Below are positions 2,376 through 39,329 of a stretch of 41,030 nt of DNA, piece by piece. Source of the DNA: an uncultured Lachnospiraceae bacterium (GTDB taxonomy: Bacteria; Bacillota; Clostridia; Lachnospirales; Lachnospiraceae); assembly GCA_902767015.1 (NCBI GenBank), contig CACXFV010000039.1, forward strand, positions 1-41,030, written 5' to 3'. Positions within the stretch are counted from its first letter, which is position 1. Each line of letters begins with the position of its first letter. Below the pieces are notes generated by a model that was not told where the DNA came from, ran no database searches, and saw only the letters and a program-made list of their open reading frames with translations. A program made the position numbers and the translations under genes.

Positions 2376-5015
2376 ATGGCAAAGGAATTGGAGAAAAATT
2401 ATGATCCGGAGGCGATTGAAAAGCGTCTCTATGAAAAATGGGAAAAGAACAAATATTTTCACGCGGAGGTGGACAGGGAGAAAAAACCATTTACCATTGT
2501 GATGCCGCCGCCGAACATTACGGGACAGCTTCATATGGGACATGCCCTTGACAACGCCCTGCAGGATATCATTATCCGTACCAAGCGTATGCAGGGATAT
2601 TCTGCTTTGTGGCTTCCGGGAACAGACCATGCTTCCATTGCAACAGAAGCAAAGATCGTGGAGAAGATGCGCGAGGAAGGCATCACAAAGGAGGAGATTG
2701 GCAGAGAGAAGTTCCTTGAGCGTGCATGGGAGTGGAAACGGCAGTACGGCGGCAGGATCGTGGCGCAGCTTAAGAAGATCGGTTCTTCCTGCGATTGGGA
2801 CAGAGAGCGTTTCACAATGGACGAGGGCTGTAATAAGGCAGTCAAAGAGGTGTTTGTCAATCTGTATAAGAAGGGACTGATCTACAGAGGTGAGCGGATC
2901 ATCAACTGGTGTCCGCATTGTCTGACATCCATTTCCGATGCGGAGGTGAATTACGAGGATCAGGCAGGTTATTTCTGGCATTTGCGTTACAAATTGTCTG
3001 ATGGAAGCGGCTATATCAATCTTGCCACCACCAGACCGGAGACGTTGCTTGGTGATACGGCGGTGGCAGTCAATCCGAAGGACGAAAGATATAAGGATTT
3101 TGTCGGCAAGACGGTCATTCTGCCCATCGTGCACCGGGAAATCCCGATTGTGGCCGATGACTATGTAGAGATGGATTTCGGAACCGGCGTGGTAAAGATC
3201 ACACCGGCACATGATCCGAATGACTTTGAGGTAGGTTTGCGGCATCATCTGCCGGTAGTTAATGTGCTGACAGAGGATGCGAAGATCGTAGAGGATTATC
3301 CGCAGTATGCCGGTATGGATCGTTATGAGGCGAGAAAAGCAATCGTAAAGGATTTAGAGGCGGAAGGCGCCCTGATCAAGGTGGAGGATTACAGCCACAA
3401 TGTAGGAACCTGCTACCGCTGTAAGACAACAGTGGAGCCTCGTGTTTCAAAACAGTGGTTTGTGAAAATGGAGGATTTGGCGAAACCGGCCATTGAAGCG
3501 GTTCGTAAGGGCGATACAAAATTTATCCCGCCGCATTTTGACAAGACCTATTATCACTGGTTAGAGAATATCCGTGACTGGTGTATTTCAAGACAGCTCT
3601 GGTGGGGACACAGAATACCTGCCTTCTACTGTGATGACTGTGGAGAAATGGTGGTAACAAAGGAGGAAACCTGCCGGTGTCCGAAGTGTCAGAAAGAGAT
3701 GCGTCAGGATCCGGATACGCTAGATACATGGTTTTCTTCGGCACTTTGGCCGTTCTCAACCCTTGGCTGGCCGGAGCAGACGGAGGAGTTAAAATATTTC
3801 TATCCGACGAACGTACTGGTGACCGGCTATGATATCATTTTCTTCTGGGTGATCCGAATGATGTTCTCCGGCCTTGAGCATGTAGGAGAGGTGCCGTTTA
3901 AGAATGTATTTATTCACGGTCTTGTCAGGGATTCACAGGGAAGAAAAATGAGTAAATCCCTTGGCAACGGTATCGATCCGTTGGAGGTGATCGAGAAGTA
4001 CGGTGCGGATGCGCTTCGGTTTACGCTGATCACCGGAAATGCACCGGGCAACGATATGCGTTTTTACTATGAGAGAGTAGAAGCCAGCAGAAATTTTGCG
4101 AATAAAGTATGGAATGCGTCAAGGTTTATCATGATGAATATGCCGGAGGATGGCATTTCCGAGGTAGAAAAAGAGGCATTGACGGCAGCCGACCGTTGGA
4201 TTTTGTCTAAGGCGAATAAGCTGGTAAAGGATGTCACGGACAATATTGAAAAATACGAGATCGGCGTGGCAGCGGATAAGTTGTACAGCTTTATCTGGGA
4301 AGAATTCTGCGATTGGTATATTGAGATGGTAAAACCGCGCCTGTACAGTGAAGATAACACCACGAAGGCGGCAGCACTTTATACGCTGAAGACGGTGTTG
4401 GAGATTTCGCTGAAGCTGCTGCACCCATATATGCCGTTTGTGACGGAGGAGATTTACTGTACCCTGAATGAGGATGCAGACACGATCATGACGAAGCAGT
4501 GGCCGGTATATACCGAGGAGTGGAATTTTGCCGTCGAGGAGGAGGCAGTGGAGATCATTAAGGAAGCTGTCAGGGGAATCCGTAATGTGCGTGCCGGAAT
4601 GAACGTGCCGCCGTCGAAGAAGGCACAGGTTTATGTGGTGACGCAGAGTGAAAAGTTTGCGAAGATTTTTGAAGACAGCAGGGTATTCTTCCAGACACTT
4701 TCCTATGCGGGAGAAGTGCTGATCCAGAGCGATAAGACAGGTATTGACGATGATGCGGTTTCAGCAGTGATCGAGAATGCGACTATTTATATGCCGTTTG
4801 CGGAGTTAGTGGAGATAGACAAGGAGATAGAAAGGCTGAAAAAGGAAGAAGAACGTCTGAAAGGAGAGCTTGCCAGGGTAGATAAGATGTTGTCCAATGA
4901 GAAGTTCATAGCCAAGGCACCTCAGGCGAAGATTGACGAGGAGAAAGAGAAGCAGGCCAAGTATGCGCAGATGATGAAGCAGGTGCAGGAGCAGCTGGCG
5001 CATTTGCAGAAGTAG
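2376..5015 (+). CDS. valS: Valine-tRNA ligase
   Basis: An 879-residue class Ia synthetase of normal length that attaches valine to tRNA-Val in the cytoplasm. The HIGH motif appears as HMGH within PPPNITGQLHMGH (about residues 47-59) and the KMSKS motif as GRKMSKSLGNGIDP (about 524-537). Between them is the CP1 editing domain, with TTRPETLLGDT and a DPNDFEVG segment. CxxC pairs near residues 425-440 (CDDC, CRCPKC) suggest a zinc site. The anticodon-binding domain follows, and the last 65 residues are a charged coiled coil typical of ValRS. The start at 2376 follows an AAAGAGG ribosome site. Expression is controlled by the T-box upstream, and a terminator follows at 5107-5170. Confidence 0.98.
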   Translation: MAKELEKNYDPEAIEKRLYEKWEKNKYFHAEVDREKKPFTIVMPPPNITGQLHMGHALDNALQDIIIRTKRMQGYSALWLPGTDHASIATEAKIVEKMREEGITKEEIGREKFLERAWEWKRQYGGRIVAQLKKIGSSCDWDRERFTMDEGCNKAVKEVFVNLYKKGLIYRGERIINWCPHCLTSISDAEVNYEDQAGYFWHLRYKLSDGSGYINLATTRPETLLGDTAVAVNPKDERYKDFVGKTVILPIVHREIPIVADDYVEMDFGTGVVKITPAHDPNDFEVGLRHHLPVVNVLTEDAKIVEDYPQYAGMDRYEARKAIVKDLEAEGALIKVEDYSHNVGTCYRCKTTVEPRVSKQWFVKMEDLAKPAIEAVRKGDTKFIPPHFDKTYYHWLENIRDWCISRQLWWGHRIPAFYCDDCGEMVVTKEETCRCPKCQKEMRQDPDTLDTWFSSALWPFSTLGWPEQTEELKYFYPTNVLVTGYDIIFFWVIRMMFSGLEHVGEVPFKNVFIHGLVRDSQGRKMSKSLGNGIDPLEVIEKYGADALRFTLITGNAPGNDMRFYYERVEASRNFANKVWNASRFIMMNMPEDGISEVEKEALTAADRWILSKANKLVKDVTDNIEKYEIGVAADKLYSFIWEEFCDWYIEMVKPRLYSEDNTTKAAALYTLKTVLEISLKLLHPYMPFVTEEIYCTLNEDADTIMTKQWPVYTEEWNFAVEEEAVEIIKEAVRGIRNVRAGMNVPPSKKAQVYVVTQSEKFAKIFEDSRVFFQTLSYAGEVLIQSDKTGIDDDAVSAVIENATIYMPFAELVEIDKEIERLKKEEERLKGELARVDKMLSNEKFIAKAPQAKIDEEKEKQAKYAQMMKQVQEQLAHLQK

Positions 5016-22160: not shown

Positions 22161-22167
22161 GGTGTGT

Positions 22168-22506
22168 ATGGCAAAGGAATATTTTGACCTGATACCAGTG
22201 ATAAATGAAGAAAATTCATGGAGAATGGATGTCAATAAAAATATTATCATACAAACTAAAAGGCAGGGAATCATCAGCAGAATCGCATCAAAATATTTTA
22301 ACAGACCGAAGAATAAAGAAATTGAGCTGGACGGATATGGCAGTATTGTTTGGCAAAAAATTAACGGAAAAAGCACTATTGGAGATATTGTGGAAGAAAT
22401 CATCGGCGAATTGGGAGAGGAAAAAACGCTTGCCTGTAAGAGGGCTGCAATGTTTTTTGAAATGCTTCGGTTTCATGGACTGATTCGGTTTGCCGGTTAC
22501 ACTTAG
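22168..22506 (+). CDS. PqqD-like protein (RiPP recognition element fold)
   Basis: A small protein of about 112 residues beginning MAKEYFDLIPVINEENSW. It ends in a winged-helix-like pattern typical of PqqD family proteins: ELDGYGSIVWQKINGKSTIG, then EEKTLACKRAAMFFEMLRFH. PqqD domains bind peptide precursors for radical SAM enzymes, but many orphan copies exist, and I recall similar ones in Lachnospiraceae of unknown role. GTG at 22162 is in frame but ATG at 22168 is preferred, with AAAGGT upstream. It directly follows spoVAE, eight bases from its stop, so it is probably the last gene of the spoVA transcript. No peptide gene lies beside it. Confidence 0.75.
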   Translation: MAKEYFDLIPVINEENSWRMDVNKNIIIQTKRQGIISRIASKYFNRPKNKEIELDGYGSIVWQKINGKSTIGDIVEEIIGELGEEKTLACKRAAMFFEMLRFHGLIRFAGYT

Positions 22507-33329: not shown

Positions 33330-33418
33330 GGACGAAAAGATGATTTTTATGTTAGTGAGTTTATTACTATTGCAAATATAAAAAATAGAATCAGAAACTT
33401 TTACGGAATGGAGAGAAC

Positions 33419-34489
33419 ATGAATATTTTTGCAAATTACTTATCTGGCTATTTGGAAGAAAAAAAGTATTCAAAGAGAAAAGCTGCGGAGATGATTCGCA
33501 TTGATAGAACTCAATTAAGACGGTATATAGCAGGAGAGCGATTGCCGAAAGATGAGAAAATAGTGGAATATATTGCGACAGGATTACGTATGACTGGGGA
33601 AGAGCAGTCAGTATTGATGAGTTACTATAAAAGAAGTTTGATGGGAGAGCAAAAATATGCATGGTATAGAACTATCAACACGGTTGTGAAAGGGAAAATT
33701 GCAGAATTTCTTCGAGAAAAAATTGAAACAGATGGCATGATTTATCATAGTGACAAGAGTTGTGATTGTATTCACCATACAGATGAACCGGATACTCTTC
33801 AATCATTTTATGAAATAATAAGGAAAATAAGGGAAATATGTACAGAAGCAGTTTATATAAAGGGTGTATTGATAACACAGTTTTATGATTACTATCAGAC
33901 AATCGAGGATAGTGTCAGAGATAACGATACTCTTGAGATACAGCTTTTGATTCACTTGAATAGTTTGTATGATGTCCAAGATATTTCTGATATCAGAGCA
34001 TTTCAAAATGTTTATCAGGTCATGGAAAAAGGAAAAAATTGTGAAATATACTATGCATATCATTCCGTAGAACTGACAGTTGATTATAATTTTGTAATGA
34101 CAAATAAGGGAATAGTGGTTTTTTCTTCTTTTTCCAAAGATAGGAAAAATGCAATGGGTTTTTATACTCGGAAGAAGGAAATACATAGTTACTTTTTAAA
34201 TAAGTATAAAAGAATGTTGGTAAACAGCAAACTGTATGGTTGTAGCGGAAATAAATTTGTAACTCTACATCAGAGTGATCAGCAAGAAGATAAGAAAAAG
34301 TTTTTATTTAAAGATGAATTAGAAGTGTATGAGAAAAATGGAATTAGAGGAATACATTTTTATAAACAGGATTTTGGACGGGATGTATATATTGAAGAAT
34401 ACCATCTTGTCGCGGTATTTGAAGACTTTTTCAACCAATATGGAATAGTCAACAATAACGAGTTTCAGATTAAAAACATGGAATGTTAA
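33419..34489 (+). CDS. HTH-domain protein with unknown C-terminal domain (copy 1)
   Basis: A 356-residue protein. The first 60 residues look like an XRE-type helix-turn-helix: LEEKKYSKRKAAEMIRIDR, then TQLRRYIAGERLPKDE. A conserved extension, SYYKRSLMGEQKYAWYRTI, follows. The remaining 270 residues are a mixed alpha/beta domain with no motif I recognise and no membrane helix. The next gene shares the same plan: HTH, then AYAVMIMGRKYDNYKNIRN at the equivalent place. GGAGAG precedes the ATG. First gene after the regulated promoter at 33300. Likely a DNA-binding sensor for the downstream peptide genes. Base composition is clearly AT-rich. Confidence 0.65.
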   Translation: MNIFANYLSGYLEEKKYSKRKAAEMIRIDRTQLRRYIAGERLPKDEKIVEYIATGLRMTGEEQSVLMSYYKRSLMGEQKYAWYRTINTVVKGKIAEFLREKIETDGMIYHSDKSCDCIHHTDEPDTLQSFYEIIRKIREICTEAVYIKGVLITQFYDYYQTIEDSVRDNDTLEIQLLIHLNSLYDVQDISDIRAFQNVYQVMEKGKNCEIYYAYHSVELTVDYNFVMTNKGIVVFSSFSKDRKNAMGFYTRKKEIHSYFLNKYKRMLVNSKLYGCSGNKFVTLHQSDQQEDKKKFLFKDELEVYEKNGIRGIHFYKQDFGRDVYIEEYHLVAVFEDFFNQYGIVNNNEFQIKNMEC

Positions 34490-34533
34490 TGTACTGAGAA
34501 TGGAGAAACAATGATTGATGAAGGAGAAAGCTA

Positions 34534-35880
34534 ATGACGCTGTTTTCGGAATGTTTGACAAGGATTAAGGACAAGAGAAATATGAGTGCTGTCGAAATGG
34601 CAGAGATTTGTAACATGGATGTTTCAGTGATTTTTTCATGGCTTAATGGAAAAAGAACACCTAATGATATCAGTAAAGTCAGGCAGATGAGTATTCGCAT
34701 GAGATTAACAAAAAATGAGGCAATGGAATTAGAGAACGCTTATGCTGTTATGATTATGGGAAGGAAATATGATAACTATAAAAATATACGCAATCTGCTC
34801 ATTACATTGAGCAATAAATGCAGAGAATCAGAAAAATATTCTTTTAACTCGGCGCGAAATCTCAAAATATTATACAAAACTACCTCGGGATTTGTATCTT
34901 TGAAAGGAAGGGTTGAAATACTGGGAGCTTTATTGGAAATAATCAATACATATGAGAATATGAACAATTTATATATTGTAAGCAGAAATCAGCCAAAGGA
35001 AATAGATGAAATTATCAGACTATATGGAAGAAACAAAAAAATATATATTGAACAGATAGTATGTAAAGAAGTGGATAAAAATAATGATACGGCATTGTTA
35101 ATGGATATTTTACCGTGTATTTTTTATGAAAAAAATATTAATATTTTCTTTGTGGAAATGAATGAAATAGGGGAAGAAAGTTATCTTCTGTGTGATCAGT
35201 TTTATTTCCAGTATAATGCTCGTTTGACAGAGGGATTGTTTACTACTTATGAGGCATGGATTAAAATGCAAAGGGAAATGTATATGCAATTAAAAAAACA
35301 AAGCAGAAAAATATGCAAAATGGATACTGATGATATGAATATGTTTAATACGGAGAGAGTTATGAATTCTGTGATTCGTTCCGTAGGATTTCAACCTTAT
35401 GTTGTGGGAATATCCAATGAAAAAGTACTGAAAAAATATTCTATAAAATCTTTTTTTAGCAGGGAAGGGCTAAGGAGATTTTTAGAGACTGGGATTTTGG
35501 ATGTTGTCTGTCATACATCGAATATGACGTTCACAAGAAGAGAGAGATGTTCCTTTATTAGAAAATACGTTCCATTGTCAAGAGAGATGAAGAATGAACA
35601 ATTTATGATTAGAGAGGAACAAGGACTCTCTCTTTTGGGGGTTCATATGCAGATGGTCTCAGAAAATAAAAAAAAATCAGTCAGAATTGATACATTATTA
35701 GAAAATGGTAAGATAGAACATTTGGTGATAACTGACAGAAATATGATAGATGGAATTGAAGAATTTTATCAGTGTTTGGAAGAAAATATGATTACGTACT
35801 CTAAAGAGGAAACAGAACAGTATATGCTCGATCTGGTGGAAGAATATGAGAATAAGTGGCAGGTAAAAGGTGATAAATGA
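34534..35880 (+). CDS. HTH-domain protein with unknown C-terminal domain (copy 2)
   Basis: A 448-residue protein, a distant paralogue of the preceding one. Its N-terminal HTH-like region reads NMSAVEMAEICNMDVSVIFS then WLNGKRTPNDISKV, followed by the shared AYAVMIMGRKYDNYKN block. The long C-terminal region has no recognised motif, is rich in Lys, Glu and Ile, and has no membrane helix. GAAGGAG lies a few bases before the ATG. Its stop codon overlaps (ATGA) a 19-codon frame. Two unlike copies in tandem suggest a heteromeric regulator or two sensors; the function is unknown. Confidence 0.6.
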   Translation: MTLFSECLTRIKDKRNMSAVEMAEICNMDVSVIFSWLNGKRTPNDISKVRQMSIRMRLTKNEAMELENAYAVMIMGRKYDNYKNIRNLLITLSNKCRESEKYSFNSARNLKILYKTTSGFVSLKGRVEILGALLEIINTYENMNNLYIVSRNQPKEIDEIIRLYGRNKKIYIEQIVCKEVDKNNDTALLMDILPCIFYEKNINIFFVEMNEIGEESYLLCDQFYFQYNARLTEGLFTTYEAWIKMQREMYMQLKKQSRKICKMDTDDMNMFNTERVMNSVIRSVGFQPYVVGISNEKVLKKYSIKSFFSREGLRRFLETGILDVVCHTSNMTFTRRERCSFIRKYVPLSREMKNEQFMIREEQGLSLLGVHMQMVSENKKKSVRIDTLLENGKIEHLVITDRNMIDGIEEFYQCLEENMITYSKEETEQYMLDLVEEYENKWQVKGDK

Positions 35881-35936
35881 TAATAATGGAACAATATACT
35901 GTCAAATTAACCGGCTCATGGTTTTGGAATGGTTAG
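35877..35936 (+). CDS. Candidate 19-aa aromatic peptide overlapping the HTH gene stop
   Basis: The frame MIIMEQYTVKLTGSWFWNG starts in an ATGA overlap with the stop of the preceding gene. AAAGG lies six bases upstream, the usual sign of coupled translation. The C-terminus is aromatic (SWFWNG), like some Gram-positive signalling peptides, and the genes before it encode regulators. No export signal is obvious. So short a frame can arise by chance, so this is only a candidate. Confidence 0.3.
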   Translation: MIIMEQYTVKLTGSWFWNG

Positions 35937-35993
35937 TTAGATGATAAAATAGAAGAGTGATGAATTGAGAAATGATGGTTAGTTGAATAAATA

Positions 35994-36743
35994 TTGAAAA
36001 AAGTCATGGGAAACGATGAGAGAGAACCAATAAAAAAAAATGTAGTACTGGCGAATTCGTATATTATTGAACACTTGATTGGAAGGGGAGGTAACAGCCT
36101 TGTTTATATGGCATTGGACATTGTTACTGATCAACGGGTAGTCATTAAGGAACTATTTCCATATATGAACGCGTACAGAGAAAAAAATACGAATTTAAGC
36201 CAGAAAATATGTTTTTTAAAGCAGGATAAAACAAAAATTATTTGTTTTGAAAATGAAGCAATAGTATTGAAAAAAATTATTTCTCTAGAGGGGCTTGCGA
36301 AATTTAAAACATTTTTTTATCAAAACAATACTGCTTATATGGTAATGGAATATGTAAAAGGTGTTAATTTGGAAGAATGGATACAGATTAGTGGAATGAT
36401 TTCAATAGAACAAACGGAAAAATTATTTGCTCCTTTCATTAAAAATGTAAAATTGATGCATAATAAGAATGTCATTCATAGAGACATTTGTCCTGAAAAT
36501 ATTATTGTAAATAAAAATAATCAATTGATTTTAATTGATTTTGGTTCAGCACTCATTGTGAATCAGGACAACAGCGAAATAGTATCATCTGTTACATATC
36601 GTAGAGATTACAGTCCGAGAGAGCAAATAGAAGGCAAATGTATAGATGAAAATTGGATGGATATGTATGCGATTGAAGCAACGATTAGACAGTGTATGGA
36701 AATAAAAGGAAAAACAAAGATGGAATGTGTCATGAAATGGTGA
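35994..36743 (+). CDS. Ser/Thr protein-kinase-like protein, short C-lobe
   Basis: A 249-residue Hanks-type kinase fold. Counted from the TTG at 35994: glycine loop LIGRGGNSLVYMA (G30-G33), VIKE lysine K52, a helix-C glutamate near 86-88, catalytic loop IHRDICPEN (D164, N169), metal-binding IDFGSA (D182), and activation segment YSPREQ (206-211). All key catalytic residues are present. The chain ends about 35 residues after YSPREQ (MDMYAIEATIRQC, then the terminus), so the last C-lobe helices are missing; normal domains run about 40 residues further. No continuing frame was found. Neither TTG 35994 nor ATG 36006 has a good ribosome site. A 7-bp hairpin (36757-36774) follows. It lies just upstream of the six-cysteine peptide. 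Possible roles are phosphorylating the HTH proteins or modifying the peptide. Confidence 0.75.
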   Translation: MKKVMGNDEREPIKKNVVLANSYIIEHLIGRGGNSLVYMALDIVTDQRVVIKELFPYMNAYREKNTNLSQKICFLKQDKTKIICFENEAIVLKKIISLEGLAKFKTFFYQNNTAYMVMEYVKGVNLEEWIQISGMISIEQTEKLFAPFIKNVKLMHNKNVIHRDICPENIIVNKNNQLILIDFGSALIVNQDNSEIVSSVTYRRDYSPREQIEGKCIDENWMDMYAIEATIRQCMEIKGKTKMECVMKW

Positions 36744-36809
36744 ACGTATTTATATATCAGCCCAAATGGCTGATTAATAAATAAAAAATAAGGAATTGGA
36801 GGTGATGAT

Positions 36810-36983
36810 ATGAAATTTGATGAAAAAGAAAAAATGGCACTAAACGAAATGTTAACCAAATGCAACGAAAAATTTGGTGAGTATGTGTGTTCAGGAAATG
36901 TGGATGCTCATGGATGTGATAGTTGCACAGGAAGTTGTATGGGACATGGTATATCTGTTTGGACGGCATGTGACATTAAATAA
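36810..36983 (+). CDS. Candidate RiPP precursor, 57 aa with six cysteines
   Basis: A 57-residue peptide. Residues 1-26 are charged and helical (MKFDEKEKMALNEMLTKC), like a leader. The C-terminal half is rich in Cys, Gly, Ser and His, with the segment CDSCTGSCMGHG and a tail ISVWTACDIK. Cysteines are at 18, 27, 36, 39, 43 and 54. The ribosome site GGAGGTGAT (36798-36806) is nearly perfect, implying high expression. A strong terminator and then a radical SAM/SPASM gene follow. Small Cys-rich peptides beside such enzymes are usually precursors that gain thioether or other cross-links (the SCIFF, ranthipeptide and sactipeptide classes). The sequence does not match a class I can name. Confidence 0.7.
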   Translation: MKFDEKEKMALNEMLTKCNEKFGEYVCSGNVDAHGCDSCTGSCMGHGISVWTACDIK

Positions 36984-36998
36984 TGTGTGATAAGACAA

Positions 36999-37049
36999 TG
37001 CAGAGAAGGTTTGTATGTGTGGACAGAACCTTTTCTGCATTTATTTTTT
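36999..37049 (+). terminator. Terminator/attenuator between precursor and radical SAM gene
   Basis: TGCAGAGAAGGTT (36999-37011) pairs with AACCTTTTCTGCA (37027-37039) with one G-U pair, followed by TTTATTTTTT. It would stop most transcripts after the peptide gene and let some continue, giving far more precursor than enzyme, a common design in RiPP operons. Confidence 0.8.
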
Positions 37050-37094
37050 GTGCAGATAATTTGGGATGAGGAATCGAATGAGTGAGGTGTAAAA

Positions 37095-38177
37095 ATGAAG
37101 AAAGAAATCATGTTGATATTAACCGAAAAATGTAATTTGTCATGTACCTATTGCTTTGAGCATCACAAATCAATTAAGAAAATGAATTTTGAGACAGCAA
37201 GAATCATAATCGATAAGGAGATGAATGTAAAAGACGATATAGAAGAATATCAAATTACATTGTTTGGCGGAGAGCCTTTTTTAGAGATGGAATTGATTAA
37301 GAAAATTTATTACTATGTAGAAGAAAATATTGGTCGATGGAACAAAAAGGTTAATATTTTTGTAAATACAAATGGTACACTTTTGGATGATGATGTAAAA
37401 GAATGGTTGAGAAAAAGAAGGAAATATATCTATTGTGGATTGAGTTTAGATGGAACGAGAGAAATGCATAATATAAATCGTTCAAACTCATTTGACAGAA
37501 TTGATTTGGATTTTTTTAGGGAGTGTTGGCCAAATCAGATTATTAAAATGACAATTTCAAAGGAAACATTGCCTAAATTGGCAGAGGGTGTCATTTTTAT
37601 TCATGAAAAGGGGTTTGACTGTGGTTGTACATTTGCTTACGGGTTGGAGTGGAGCAAAGAATTAGTCAATATATTAAAGGAACAGCTTTGTATATTAGAA
37701 AAATTCTATATAGAACATATAAATTATCCATTATGTCAAATATTGAATATTAATATTTCAGTGCTTTTAAAAGATAAAAAGGATAGATATAAAAGATGCG
37801 GAGCAGGAGAAAATATGATGGCCTATGATACAGAAGGAAAAAAGTATCCATGCCATTCTTTCAGCACAGTTTCGCTGGGAGAAAGTGCAAAATTATTTGA
37901 GAACTATACATTGCCGATTGAAGATATTATTGATGAAGAAAGATGCATAAAATGTCAGTATTATCTGATTTGTCCGACTTGTTATGGTGTCAATTATAGT
38001 TATACCGGTAATATAGGTAAAAGAAACAGATGGCTATGTGATTTTTTTAAACTATGTGTTTCCAGCTCTGTTCGTATTCAGTTTTACCGATTGAGAAGTA
38101 AAAAAATGGAAGAATTGGATAAAAAGGATTATGAAACTTTAATGGCAATTAATAAGTGGATAACTACAAATAACTGA
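37095..38177 (+). CDS. Radical SAM/SPASM peptide-modifying enzyme
   Basis: A 360-residue radical SAM protein. The SAM-cluster motif CNLSCTYC supplies C13, C17 and C20, GGEP (58-61) binds SAM, and NTNGTLL and LSLDGT are typical barrel strands. The C-terminal part is SPASM-like: C235 and C253 in CGAGENMMAYDTE...YPCH, then C284, C287, C293 and C296, with C315 and C321, enough for auxiliary iron-sulfur clusters. Such enzymes install cross-links in ribosomal peptides or act as anSME-type maturases. No N-terminal recognition (RRE) domain is present. GAGGTG at 37084-37089 precedes the ATG. The natural substrate is the peptide at 36810, inferred from adjacency. Confidence 0.88.
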   Translation: MKKEIMLILTEKCNLSCTYCFEHHKSIKKMNFETARIIIDKEMNVKDDIEEYQITLFGGEPFLEMELIKKIYYYVEENIGRWNKKVNIFVNTNGTLLDDDVKEWLRKRRKYIYCGLSLDGTREMHNINRSNSFDRIDLDFFRECWPNQIIKMTISKETLPKLAEGVIFIHEKGFDCGCTFAYGLEWSKELVNILKEQLCILEKFYIEHINYPLCQILNINISVLLKDKKDRYKRCGAGENMMAYDTEGKKYPCHSFSTVSLGESAKLFENYTLPIEDIIDEERCIKCQYYLICPTCYGVNYSYTGNIGKRNRWLCDFFKLCVSSSVRIQFYRLRSKKMEELDKKDYETLMAINKWITTNN

Positions 38178-38296
38178 TTAAAAGTGTCAGATTTTTCGGC
38201 TCATTCTAAAAAATATGTCAAATTTTGTTACAATAACAGTGTACATATATGAAATTGGCATTTGAAAATCATTGTAAAAAGGAAGGAGTATTGATC

Positions 38297-38821
38297 ATGT
38301 CAGAAGAAATAAAATCATTTAAAGTACATCCGGATTATGAAAGTGAGGAAATTAATTACAGGCAACGATTTGGTTGGGAATTTGTAAGCACGCAGGAGAT
38401 ATATAATAAGGACACACATTTGGAAAGAGGAATATCGGACATTATTTTAGATACTACGACAAGTGTTACGGAAACAACACACTATGTTAAATTGACATTC
38501 AAAAGAGACAGATCAAAGATTAATCCACGTTTGGTAGAAATAGAGGAAGAACTTGAACACCTTTCTCCTCCGGTAAGGTCATCCTATGGTTGTGACTGGG
38601 TTGCCGGTCTGGTGGGAGCAGGTGGTTTTCTTTTATGCGGAATCATTGCGGCTGCATTGAATAACAGCGCAATTTATGCAATGGGATGGGTAGCAGTATT
38701 GATTGGGGTATTTATCCGGAGAAAAAAGAGAACTTCAGATATTGAATCAGAATACTATGAGGCAAAAAAGGCATATGATGAAAAATTAGAACAACTTATG
38801 CGTGAACTAGATAGTATCTAG
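38297..38821 (+). CDS. Small membrane protein with N-terminal soluble domain (copy 1)
   Basis: A 174-residue protein starting at ATG 38297, nine bases after AAAGGAAGGAG; the open frame runs further upstream but without a better start. Residues 1-80 are a soluble domain (IKSFKVHPDYESEEINYRQ, FGWEFVSTQEIYNKDTHLE), almost identical to that of the next gene. Two hydrophobic helices follow (about 105-145), then a basic patch (RRKKR) and a coiled tail. I recall similar unannotated proteins in Bacillota. The neighbours suggest a membrane-stress or protein-quality role, but function is unknown. A weak promoter may lie at 38225-38253. Confidence 0.7.
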   Translation: MSEEIKSFKVHPDYESEEINYRQRFGWEFVSTQEIYNKDTHLERGISDIILDTTTSVTETTHYVKLTFKRDRSKINPRLVEIEEELEHLSPPVRSSYGCDWVAGLVGAGGFLLCGIIAAALNNSAIYAMGWVAVLIGVFIRRKKRTSDIESEYYEAKKAYDEKLEQLMRELDSI

Positions 38822-38859
38822 AAAGACATTTTGAGATAAGAGAAAGAGGAGGGTAACAT

Positions 38860-39312
38860 ATGGCAAATGAAATAAAATCATTCAAGATACATCCGGATTA
38901 TGAAAGTGAAGAGATATCTTTTAGACAAAAATTCGGTTGGAAATTTGTCAGCACGCAGGAAGTTTATAATAAAGACACACATATAGAACGTGGATTTTCA
39001 GATATTATTTTGGACACCAGTACAAGTGTTACCGAAACTGTACATTATGTTAAGCTGACATTTCAAAGAGACAGAACCAGTGTTAATCCGAGGTTATTGG
39101 AGCTGGAGAATAAAATAGACAGATTAAATCCTCCTGCGGCACCGCACCAATGGGGGGAGTTAGCAATGTTGGGAGGATGTCTGTTCTGCTTTCCGTCTTA
39201 TTTTGTTATGAAGAGTGGAAATAAAAAAAGAATGAAGAAATATAGCCAAGATTACCAAAGATACGAAAATGAGTTAAATAGCCTGATGGCAGAGGTAGAC
39301 GCGTTACAGTAA
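38860..39312 (+). CDS. Small membrane protein with N-terminal soluble domain (copy 2)
   Basis: A 150-residue tandem paralogue of the preceding protein. The N-terminal 75 residues match it closely (IKSFKIHPDYESEEISFRQ; FVSTQEVYNKDTHIERG; SVTETVHYVKLTF). The C-terminal half has diverged and carries only one hydrophobic helix (LAMLGGCLFCFPSYFVM) before a basic, coiled tail. GAGGAGG lies upstream of the ATG. Origin by duplication is clear; the changed membrane part may give it a different partner. Confidence 0.7.
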   Translation: MANEIKSFKIHPDYESEEISFRQKFGWKFVSTQEVYNKDTHIERGFSDIILDTSTSVTETVHYVKLTFQRDRTSVNPRLLELENKIDRLNPPAAPHQWGELAMLGGCLFCFPSYFVMKSGNKKRMKKYSQDYQRYENELNSLMAEVDALQ

Positions 39313-39329
39313 GCGAAAGGAATTTCAAT

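Follow-up and report, generated by a model that had tools for sequence, protein, structure and literature searches.

A candidate two-gene RiPP system with an enzyme from an apparently unnamed radical SAM/SPASM clade in an uncultured Lachnospiraceae bacterium

In a 41,030-nt stretch of DNA from an uncultured Lachnospiraceae bacterium (contig CACXFV010000039.1, hereafter the window), a gene for a small Cys-containing peptide is followed at once by a gene for a radical SAM/SPASM enzyme on the same strand. We hold it highly probable that the two genes are a RiPP precursor-maturase pair, because a peptide partner recurs at 17 of the 18 relatives of the enzyme that we found. Our main reading, to which we give a probability of about 0.72, is that they form a two-gene RiPP core in which the enzyme would bind a leader on the peptide and close thioethers in its Cys core. 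Systems in which a SPASM maturase acts on a Cys-rich peptide are already well known; judged by sequence comparison, this pair apparently belongs to an unnamed subfamily of SPASM peptide maturases that matches none of the curated families tested. A preliminary description of this DNA had proposed a radical-SAM RiPP pair, and it is the pairing that the present analysis bears out.

Results

The peptide gene and the hairpin behind it

The peptide gene (36810..36983, plus strand) is an ORF of 57 aa with Cys at positions 18, 27, 36, 39, 43 and 54, exactly as first described. The near-perfect ribosome site claimed for it is also present: GGAGGTGATG (36798..36807, plus strand) lies 2 bases upstream of the ATG. 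Searches with the peptide found no NCBIfam model at E <=1, nothing in viral contigs and, by tblastn, nothing in plasmids; in its own genome the peptide retrieved itself and a single match at E 0.195.

The gap between the two genes contains a terminator- or attenuator-like hairpin (36998..37049, plus strand). Its 15-bp stem-loop spans 36998-37040 and is followed by TTATTTTTT, and the 121-nt region around it folded with a z-score of -3.56, a value equalled by 1 of 200 shuffles. The hairpin is not among the entries of a consensus terminator scan, probably because its loop exceeds the length that the scan permits. The strong terminator of the preliminary description stands as a hairpin and not as a listed consensus terminator.

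A peptide gene recurs beside relatives of the enzyme

Using the enzyme as bait, we found at least 18 relatives in Bacillota, Bacteroidota, Chlorobiota and Synergistota, about 30-40% identical to the window enzyme where measured; two of them (L057 and L061) are near-copies, so the number of independent lineages is below 18. A single-sequence search gave no match in genome contigs or viral contigs. A tblastn search of plasmids and phages returned a Phocaeicola record (L018, 37.5%) and a gut scaffold (L019, 36.4%), and an alignment-based search added L023. At least 10 loci (L053-L062) came from the genome-contig search at E 3e-49 or better, and among the genome-contig matches listed the next E value rises to 9e-29. 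The family is rare: a whole-genome profile search with a threshold of E 1e-60, in which the best five candidates per genome were scored and the counts are therefore lower bounds, gave at least 2 of 390 other genomes in a draw from the class (G621, G534), at least 2 of 397 in a draw from the phylum (G1020, G704) and at least 1 of 396 in a draw from the family (G1088), three draws that may overlap. In the 8 congeneric genomes searched, no close relative of the enzyme turned up; their best matches, at E 3e-16, mostly cover residues 3-130.

Inspection by eye showed a same-strand small ORF with a Cys-containing C-terminus adjoining the enzyme in 17 of the 18 relatives, including all five that were found last through the enzyme profile alone. 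The exception is L054, with no peptide partner in view, where the enzyme starts 11 bases from the contig end. The peptide lies upstream of the enzyme in the window, L023, L056, L058, L059, L060, G621, G534, G1020 and G704, and downstream of it in L018, L019, L053, L055, L057, L061, L062 and G1088; L056 is ambiguous, with two Cys-rich candidate ORFs and a second radical SAM gene nearby. Co-occurrence had been proposed as a check of the pair, with absence of the peptide beside homologues counting as a refutation, and the partner was found at this high rate. At locus L141, two tandem copies of a 118-aa precursor gene (2578-2934 and 3019-3375, minus strand) lie upstream of the enzyme; in each, the Cys lie within a repeat in the middle, and a long tail follows.

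The partners vary widely in Cys content, from 2 (G621) and 3 (L018) up to 16 (L059). Six Cys is therefore no signature of the class, and this range suits one fixed product poorly. A frequent core element in the family is CxGxC, which reads CTGSC in the window. We counted adjoining ORFs that are 40-140 aa long and carry CxGxC in their tail, a criterion set after the peptides had been seen. With the window counted in, 12 of 19 family enzymes had such a neighbour; among other genes of at least 250 aa in the fetched loci the figure was 10 of 286 (Fisher p ~2e-11 for the family against these genes), and among radical SAM genes outside the family it was 4 of 84. The test missed L054, L058, L060, L062, L138, L144 and L145, all of which except L054 have a partner by eye. 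An earlier test that combined a ribosome site with 3 Cys, likewise set after the peptides had been seen, was passed by 9 of 16 family loci (three of the 19 entered the CxGxC test only), by 30 of the 286 other genes and by 29 of 83 radical SAM genes outside the family. This last figure counts against the RiPP reading, since by this looser test a small Cys-rich ORF is often present beside radical SAM genes of other kinds too; the 29 are probably in part SCIFF pairs. The demand for a ribosome site is overly strict at some family loci, yet SCIFF-like peptides pass the test.

Leader and core

As a rule, RiPP leaders precede their cores. In the window peptide, we place the leader at residues 1-35 (36810..36914, plus strand), from its alignment with the leader of L057, and the core at residues 36-57, CDSCTGSCMGHGISVWTACDIK (36915..36980, plus strand), from a local pairwise alignment with the same peptide; the boundary between them is putative. 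An alignment of its first 23 residues to the Chlorobi leaders L057 and L061 has a score of 40. For L057, the best among 12 leaders compared with that of the window, this score was matched by 19 of 50000 shuffles and by none of 1370 other ORF N-termini. When whole peptides were aligned locally, CDSCTGSC of the window was set on CTSCAGYC of L057, a placement of the core that differs from those given by multiple and global alignments; a multiple alignment of 14 precursors was poor, with a mean column identity of 19%. The L057 and L061 peptides are identical in their first 28 residues and in all eight Cys and differ in other core residues. Because of the window-L057 alignments of leader and core and of this L057/L061 pattern, Cys18 and Cys27 probably fall within the leader. 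The preliminary description listed Cys18 and Cys27 with the Cys/Gly/Ser-rich half; going by the local alignment, they would belong to the leader.

The window leader also resembles that of G1020 (p 0.003), and the window core ends like those of G1020 and G534, with a C-terminal Cys plus 3-4 residues. Leader pairs at p < 0.03 numbered 6 of 78 in one comparison (~2.3 expected) and 8 of 55 in another (~1.7 expected). Most family leaders are not alignable with one another, which counts against the RiPP reading, as does the weak overall constraint on the L057 and L061 peptides (dN 0.061, dS 0.101). The two copies of the duplicated L018 peptide, with dS 1.29 and dN 0.12, count in its favour.

Motifs and predicted fold of the enzyme

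The enzyme gene (37095..38177, plus strand) encodes 360 aa, and its product matches Pfam Radical_SAM at E 5.3e-13, in agreement with the radical SAM enzyme first described directly after the peptide. Residues 13-20 carry the CX3CX2C motif as CNLSCTYC (C13, C17, C20; 37131..37154, plus strand), invariant in a 14-row alignment of the family. From residue 235 onward there are Cys at 235, 253, 284, 287, 293, 296, 315 and 321. All eight of the SPASM-region Cys initially counted are thus present; only the first seven, C235 to C315, are invariant or nearly so in the alignment. These seven form the SPASM region CX12GX4C ... CX2CX5CX2C ... C (37797..38039, plus strand), and together with CX3CX2C they place the enzyme among the SPASM proteins. 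The canonical SPASM motif is CX2CX5CX3C; the window enzyme has CX2CX5CX2C. By analogy with the ligand layout of anSME, C235, C253 and C296 would bind a first auxiliary cluster, one of whose sites would stay open, and the remaining four Cys would bind a second.

An AlphaFold2 model of the enzyme has a mean pLDDT of 91.4. Its first strand occupies residues 2-10, ahead of the radical SAM motif, and therefore leaves no space for an N-terminal RRE, a domain that the enzyme is predicted to lack. Foldseek ranked the SCIFF maturase CteB (5WGG) first, with a TM-score of 0.75 by query length and E 2.4e-19, making it the closest solved fold. Like the window enzyme, CteB has seven SPASM Cys, a number stated for CteB and QhpD in an excerpt of PMC10352776. 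The second group of matches was anSME (TM 0.72), followed lower down by TigE (E 5.9e-13), SuiB (4e-10) and EpeE (1.3e-7).

The recurring pairing, the clade described below, the predicted fold and the motifs are computational observations, and around them we propose the following route. The N-terminal part of the precursor, about residues 1-35, would act as the leader and the Cys/Gly/Ser stretch 36-57 as the core, and the enzyme would bind the leader directly, without an RRE domain. SAM would be cleaved at a [4Fe-4S] cluster held by C13, C17 and C20, and the deoxyadenosyl radical would take a hydrogen from an acceptor residue. A core Cys thiolate, held by the open-site auxiliary cluster, would then close a thioether with a loss of 2 Da each time, and up to four such bonds might form, at C36, C39, C43 and C54. 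The intergenic hairpin may serve to give more precursor than enzyme. Finally, the leader would be removed and the product exported as a competition or signalling peptide.

The pairing, the leader similarity, the CteB fold, the seven-Cys SPASM region and a branch with ClpP-like and ABC transporter genes (see below) all count for this main reading. Supposing that the genes are a pair, thioether cross-linking is our best guess for the chemistry, one that we think probable. The same pair might instead carry out another radical change, such as epimerisation, a C-alpha sactionine, a carbon-carbon link or a cyclopropane, with the Cys binding metal or forming disulfides. SPASM enzymes of varied chemistry, namely TigE, SuiB and EpeE, do match the fold, and the HMM matches of the enzyme are scattered across many maturase families. 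However, the cores have Cys as their sole constant, often spaced as CxGxC or CxxC, and of the fold matches it is the thioether-forming CteB that ranks first, ahead of those three. We regard a different chemistry as the strongest competitor, with something under one chance in five.

Genomic neighbourhood

The pair lies in a low-GC stretch after addA (33400-39320; 0.324 against 0.423 for 1-33000), and the GC content of the enzyme gene, 0.302, is below that of the lowest 1083-nt segment stepped through 1-33000 (0.358). In 7 congeners, the regions fetched around addA showed none of the genes that run in the window from 33419 to the DUF-like pair. Because of its low GC and of this absence, the stretch with the pair was probably acquired. 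Two tandem paralogues (38294-38821 and 38860-39312), which score 162.7 bits to each other, follow the enzyme gene.

Directly upstream of the pair lies a Ser/Thr protein-kinase-like gene (35994..36743, plus strand; Pfam Pkinase 2.7e-28). Its C-lobe looks truncated, because the Pfam match ends at profile position 187 of 263. The enzyme is followed by a Ser/Thr kinase gene in G621, by an APH-type kinase gene in G534 and, directly downstream in L054 (1133-2659), by a gene for a TIR plus STAND-type NTPase. These neighbours, the upstream kinase within the same low-GC stretch and the failure to find an exporter near the window pair would agree with a different role, in which peptide, enzyme and kinase work together inside the cell, as a module for signalling or defence, and not as a system for export. 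Nevertheless, the kinase-type and TIR-STAND-type genes, two Pkinase-type and one APH-type among them, have no mutual match at E 1e-4, and a kinase is present at just 3 of 19 loci, on differing sides, an adjacency that chance may explain. We consider this module improbable. Slightly less probable still is its more specific form, in which the modified peptide of the Bacillota branch would stay in the cell, its partner there being either a protein kinase or a protein of the TIR-STAND type, and its leader would be recognised by the radical SAM domain free of any RRE. We think export, whether for competition or for signalling, likelier than a role inside the cell.

A ClpP-like protease gene lies beside the pair in L019, L055 and L061, and an ABC transporter gene together with a second enzyme of the clade in L019, L057 and L061. 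From this gene content, the L019/L055/L057/L061 branch reads as a fuller RiPP cluster. L019 (615-5923, a gut scaffold) and L061 (165-5682, from a bin very near the Chlorobi one) each hold two clade enzymes, the ClpP-like protease and the ABC transporter. No exporter and no protease were found in the surroundings of the window pair, which counts against the RiPP reading.

A small PqqD-like protein with the RRE fold is encoded at 22162-22506, beside spoVA, and is the sole PqqD match in the genome. We rejected it as a dedicated RRE partner given its spoVA neighbour and the position of a homologue (54%) in congener G305, where it adjoins spoVAD in a genome that lacks any close relative of the enzyme; the window enzyme may make shared use of the PqqD-like protein.

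Alternatively, the peptide might be a small protein of the zinc-ribbon type that binds a metal or an Fe-S cluster, and its proximity to the enzyme would be meaningless. The best Pfam match of the window peptide is a weak zinc-finger match (E 0.028, all others being worse), and in L058 (4587-4931) the N-terminal part of the precursor is a double zinc ribbon. That ribbon comes before a separate Cys tail, however, while the partner recurs at nearly all relatives and the leaders and cores vary as those of precursors do; we judge this reading very unlikely.

A separate clade, compared with known systems

The 19 family enzymes and two second copies formed one clade (support 96/90; 95% of 200 bootstrap trees), in which the G1020 enzyme is the sister of the window enzyme (94/92). 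The clade stands apart from a CXXX-repeat group (100/100) and from a group of PapB-like, SCIFF, nif11 and PeaB rows (100/98). This fuller tree has 35 rows and no anSME row, and our claim is limited to a separate clade because the tree leaves the root and the nearest group unfixed. In a quick first tree of 34 rows, built without the enzymes of L061, G1020, G704 and G1088, the clade adjoined the CXXX maturases. Row names such as SCIFF and PeaB are our own labels; NCBIfam scans bear out the CXXX label of L003 and L020 and the nif11 label of L114, and PapB is the best model of the rows named after it, with scores below its cut-off.

Among the best 25 of 72 NCBIfam models at E <=1, the window enzyme lies far below the cut-off of each. 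The best-scoring named model is NF047865, for PapB, the maturase of the ranthipeptide PapA (147.3 bits of a cut-off of 340, E 6.1e-43). No E value among 14 family members is lower than this one of the window (147 of 340 bits), and therefore none of them resembles a curated family. Ranthipeptides carry a thioether that runs from a Cys S to a non-alpha carbon. PapB-like rows, themselves below the cut-off, fall in another clade. PapB joins Cys to Asp in CX3D, according to an excerpt of PMC9413430; the window precursor has no CX3D or CX3E, that is, no Asp or Glu four residues past any Cys.

The CXXX-repeat system (maturase TIGR04115, precursor TIGR04114, partner TIGR04119) is alike in its N-terminal-proximal radical SAM motif and its Cys/Gly-rich cores, and its member L020 also has CX2CX5CX2C. 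Weak matches, listed to E 10, link 5 of 14 family precursors to TIGR04114 (best E 0.0015) and 4 of 14 to TIGR04117 (0.00054). In contrast, the window enzyme scores 115.7 bits against a cut-off of 350, where members L003 and L020 reach 470 and 630; the window precursor matches neither TIGR04114 nor TIGR04117, and the window genome (96.7% complete) has no TIGR04119 match. Among the top hits of literature searches with most subscription journals outside their reach, none appears, by title and abstract opening, to deal with the enzyme clade, which may have been described in other papers; no paper in the library searched mentions TIGR04115, TIGR04114 or 'CXXX repeat'.

That the enzyme is an anaerobic sulfatase maturase or a SCIFF maturase can be dismissed with near certainty: although anSME is the second fold group and anSMEcpe (4K37) is similar in length, the enzyme reaches 60.8 of 349 bits for TIGR03942 and 85.6 of 425 for SCIFF TIGR03974, the SCIFF rows group elsewhere, the enzyme differs from CteB in its predicted lack of an RRE, the precursor matches no SCIFF model, and the window proteins scanned include no sulfatase near the pair. 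We rejected the SCIFF maturase on score and trees and the sulfatase maturase on score. This upholds the preliminary description, which had set the pair apart from SCIFF and named a sulfatase maturase with a sulfatase partner as grounds for abandoning it; the two sulfatase matches of the genome lie on other contigs (C116 and C158).

Discussion

The pair described here brings to light a clade of radical SAM/SPASM peptide maturases with small precursors that is apparently unnamed, present in several phyla and yet rare. If the idea of an intracellular role in the Bacillota branch were true, a radical-SAM-modified peptide would act within a switch for signalling or defence and would not be an exported bacteriocin. 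The pair is small enough for testing in E. coli, where RRE-free leader recognition would be directly testable, and the precursors with 2 (G621), 3 (L018) and 16 (L059) Cys offer a natural series for working out the rules that match donor to acceptor.
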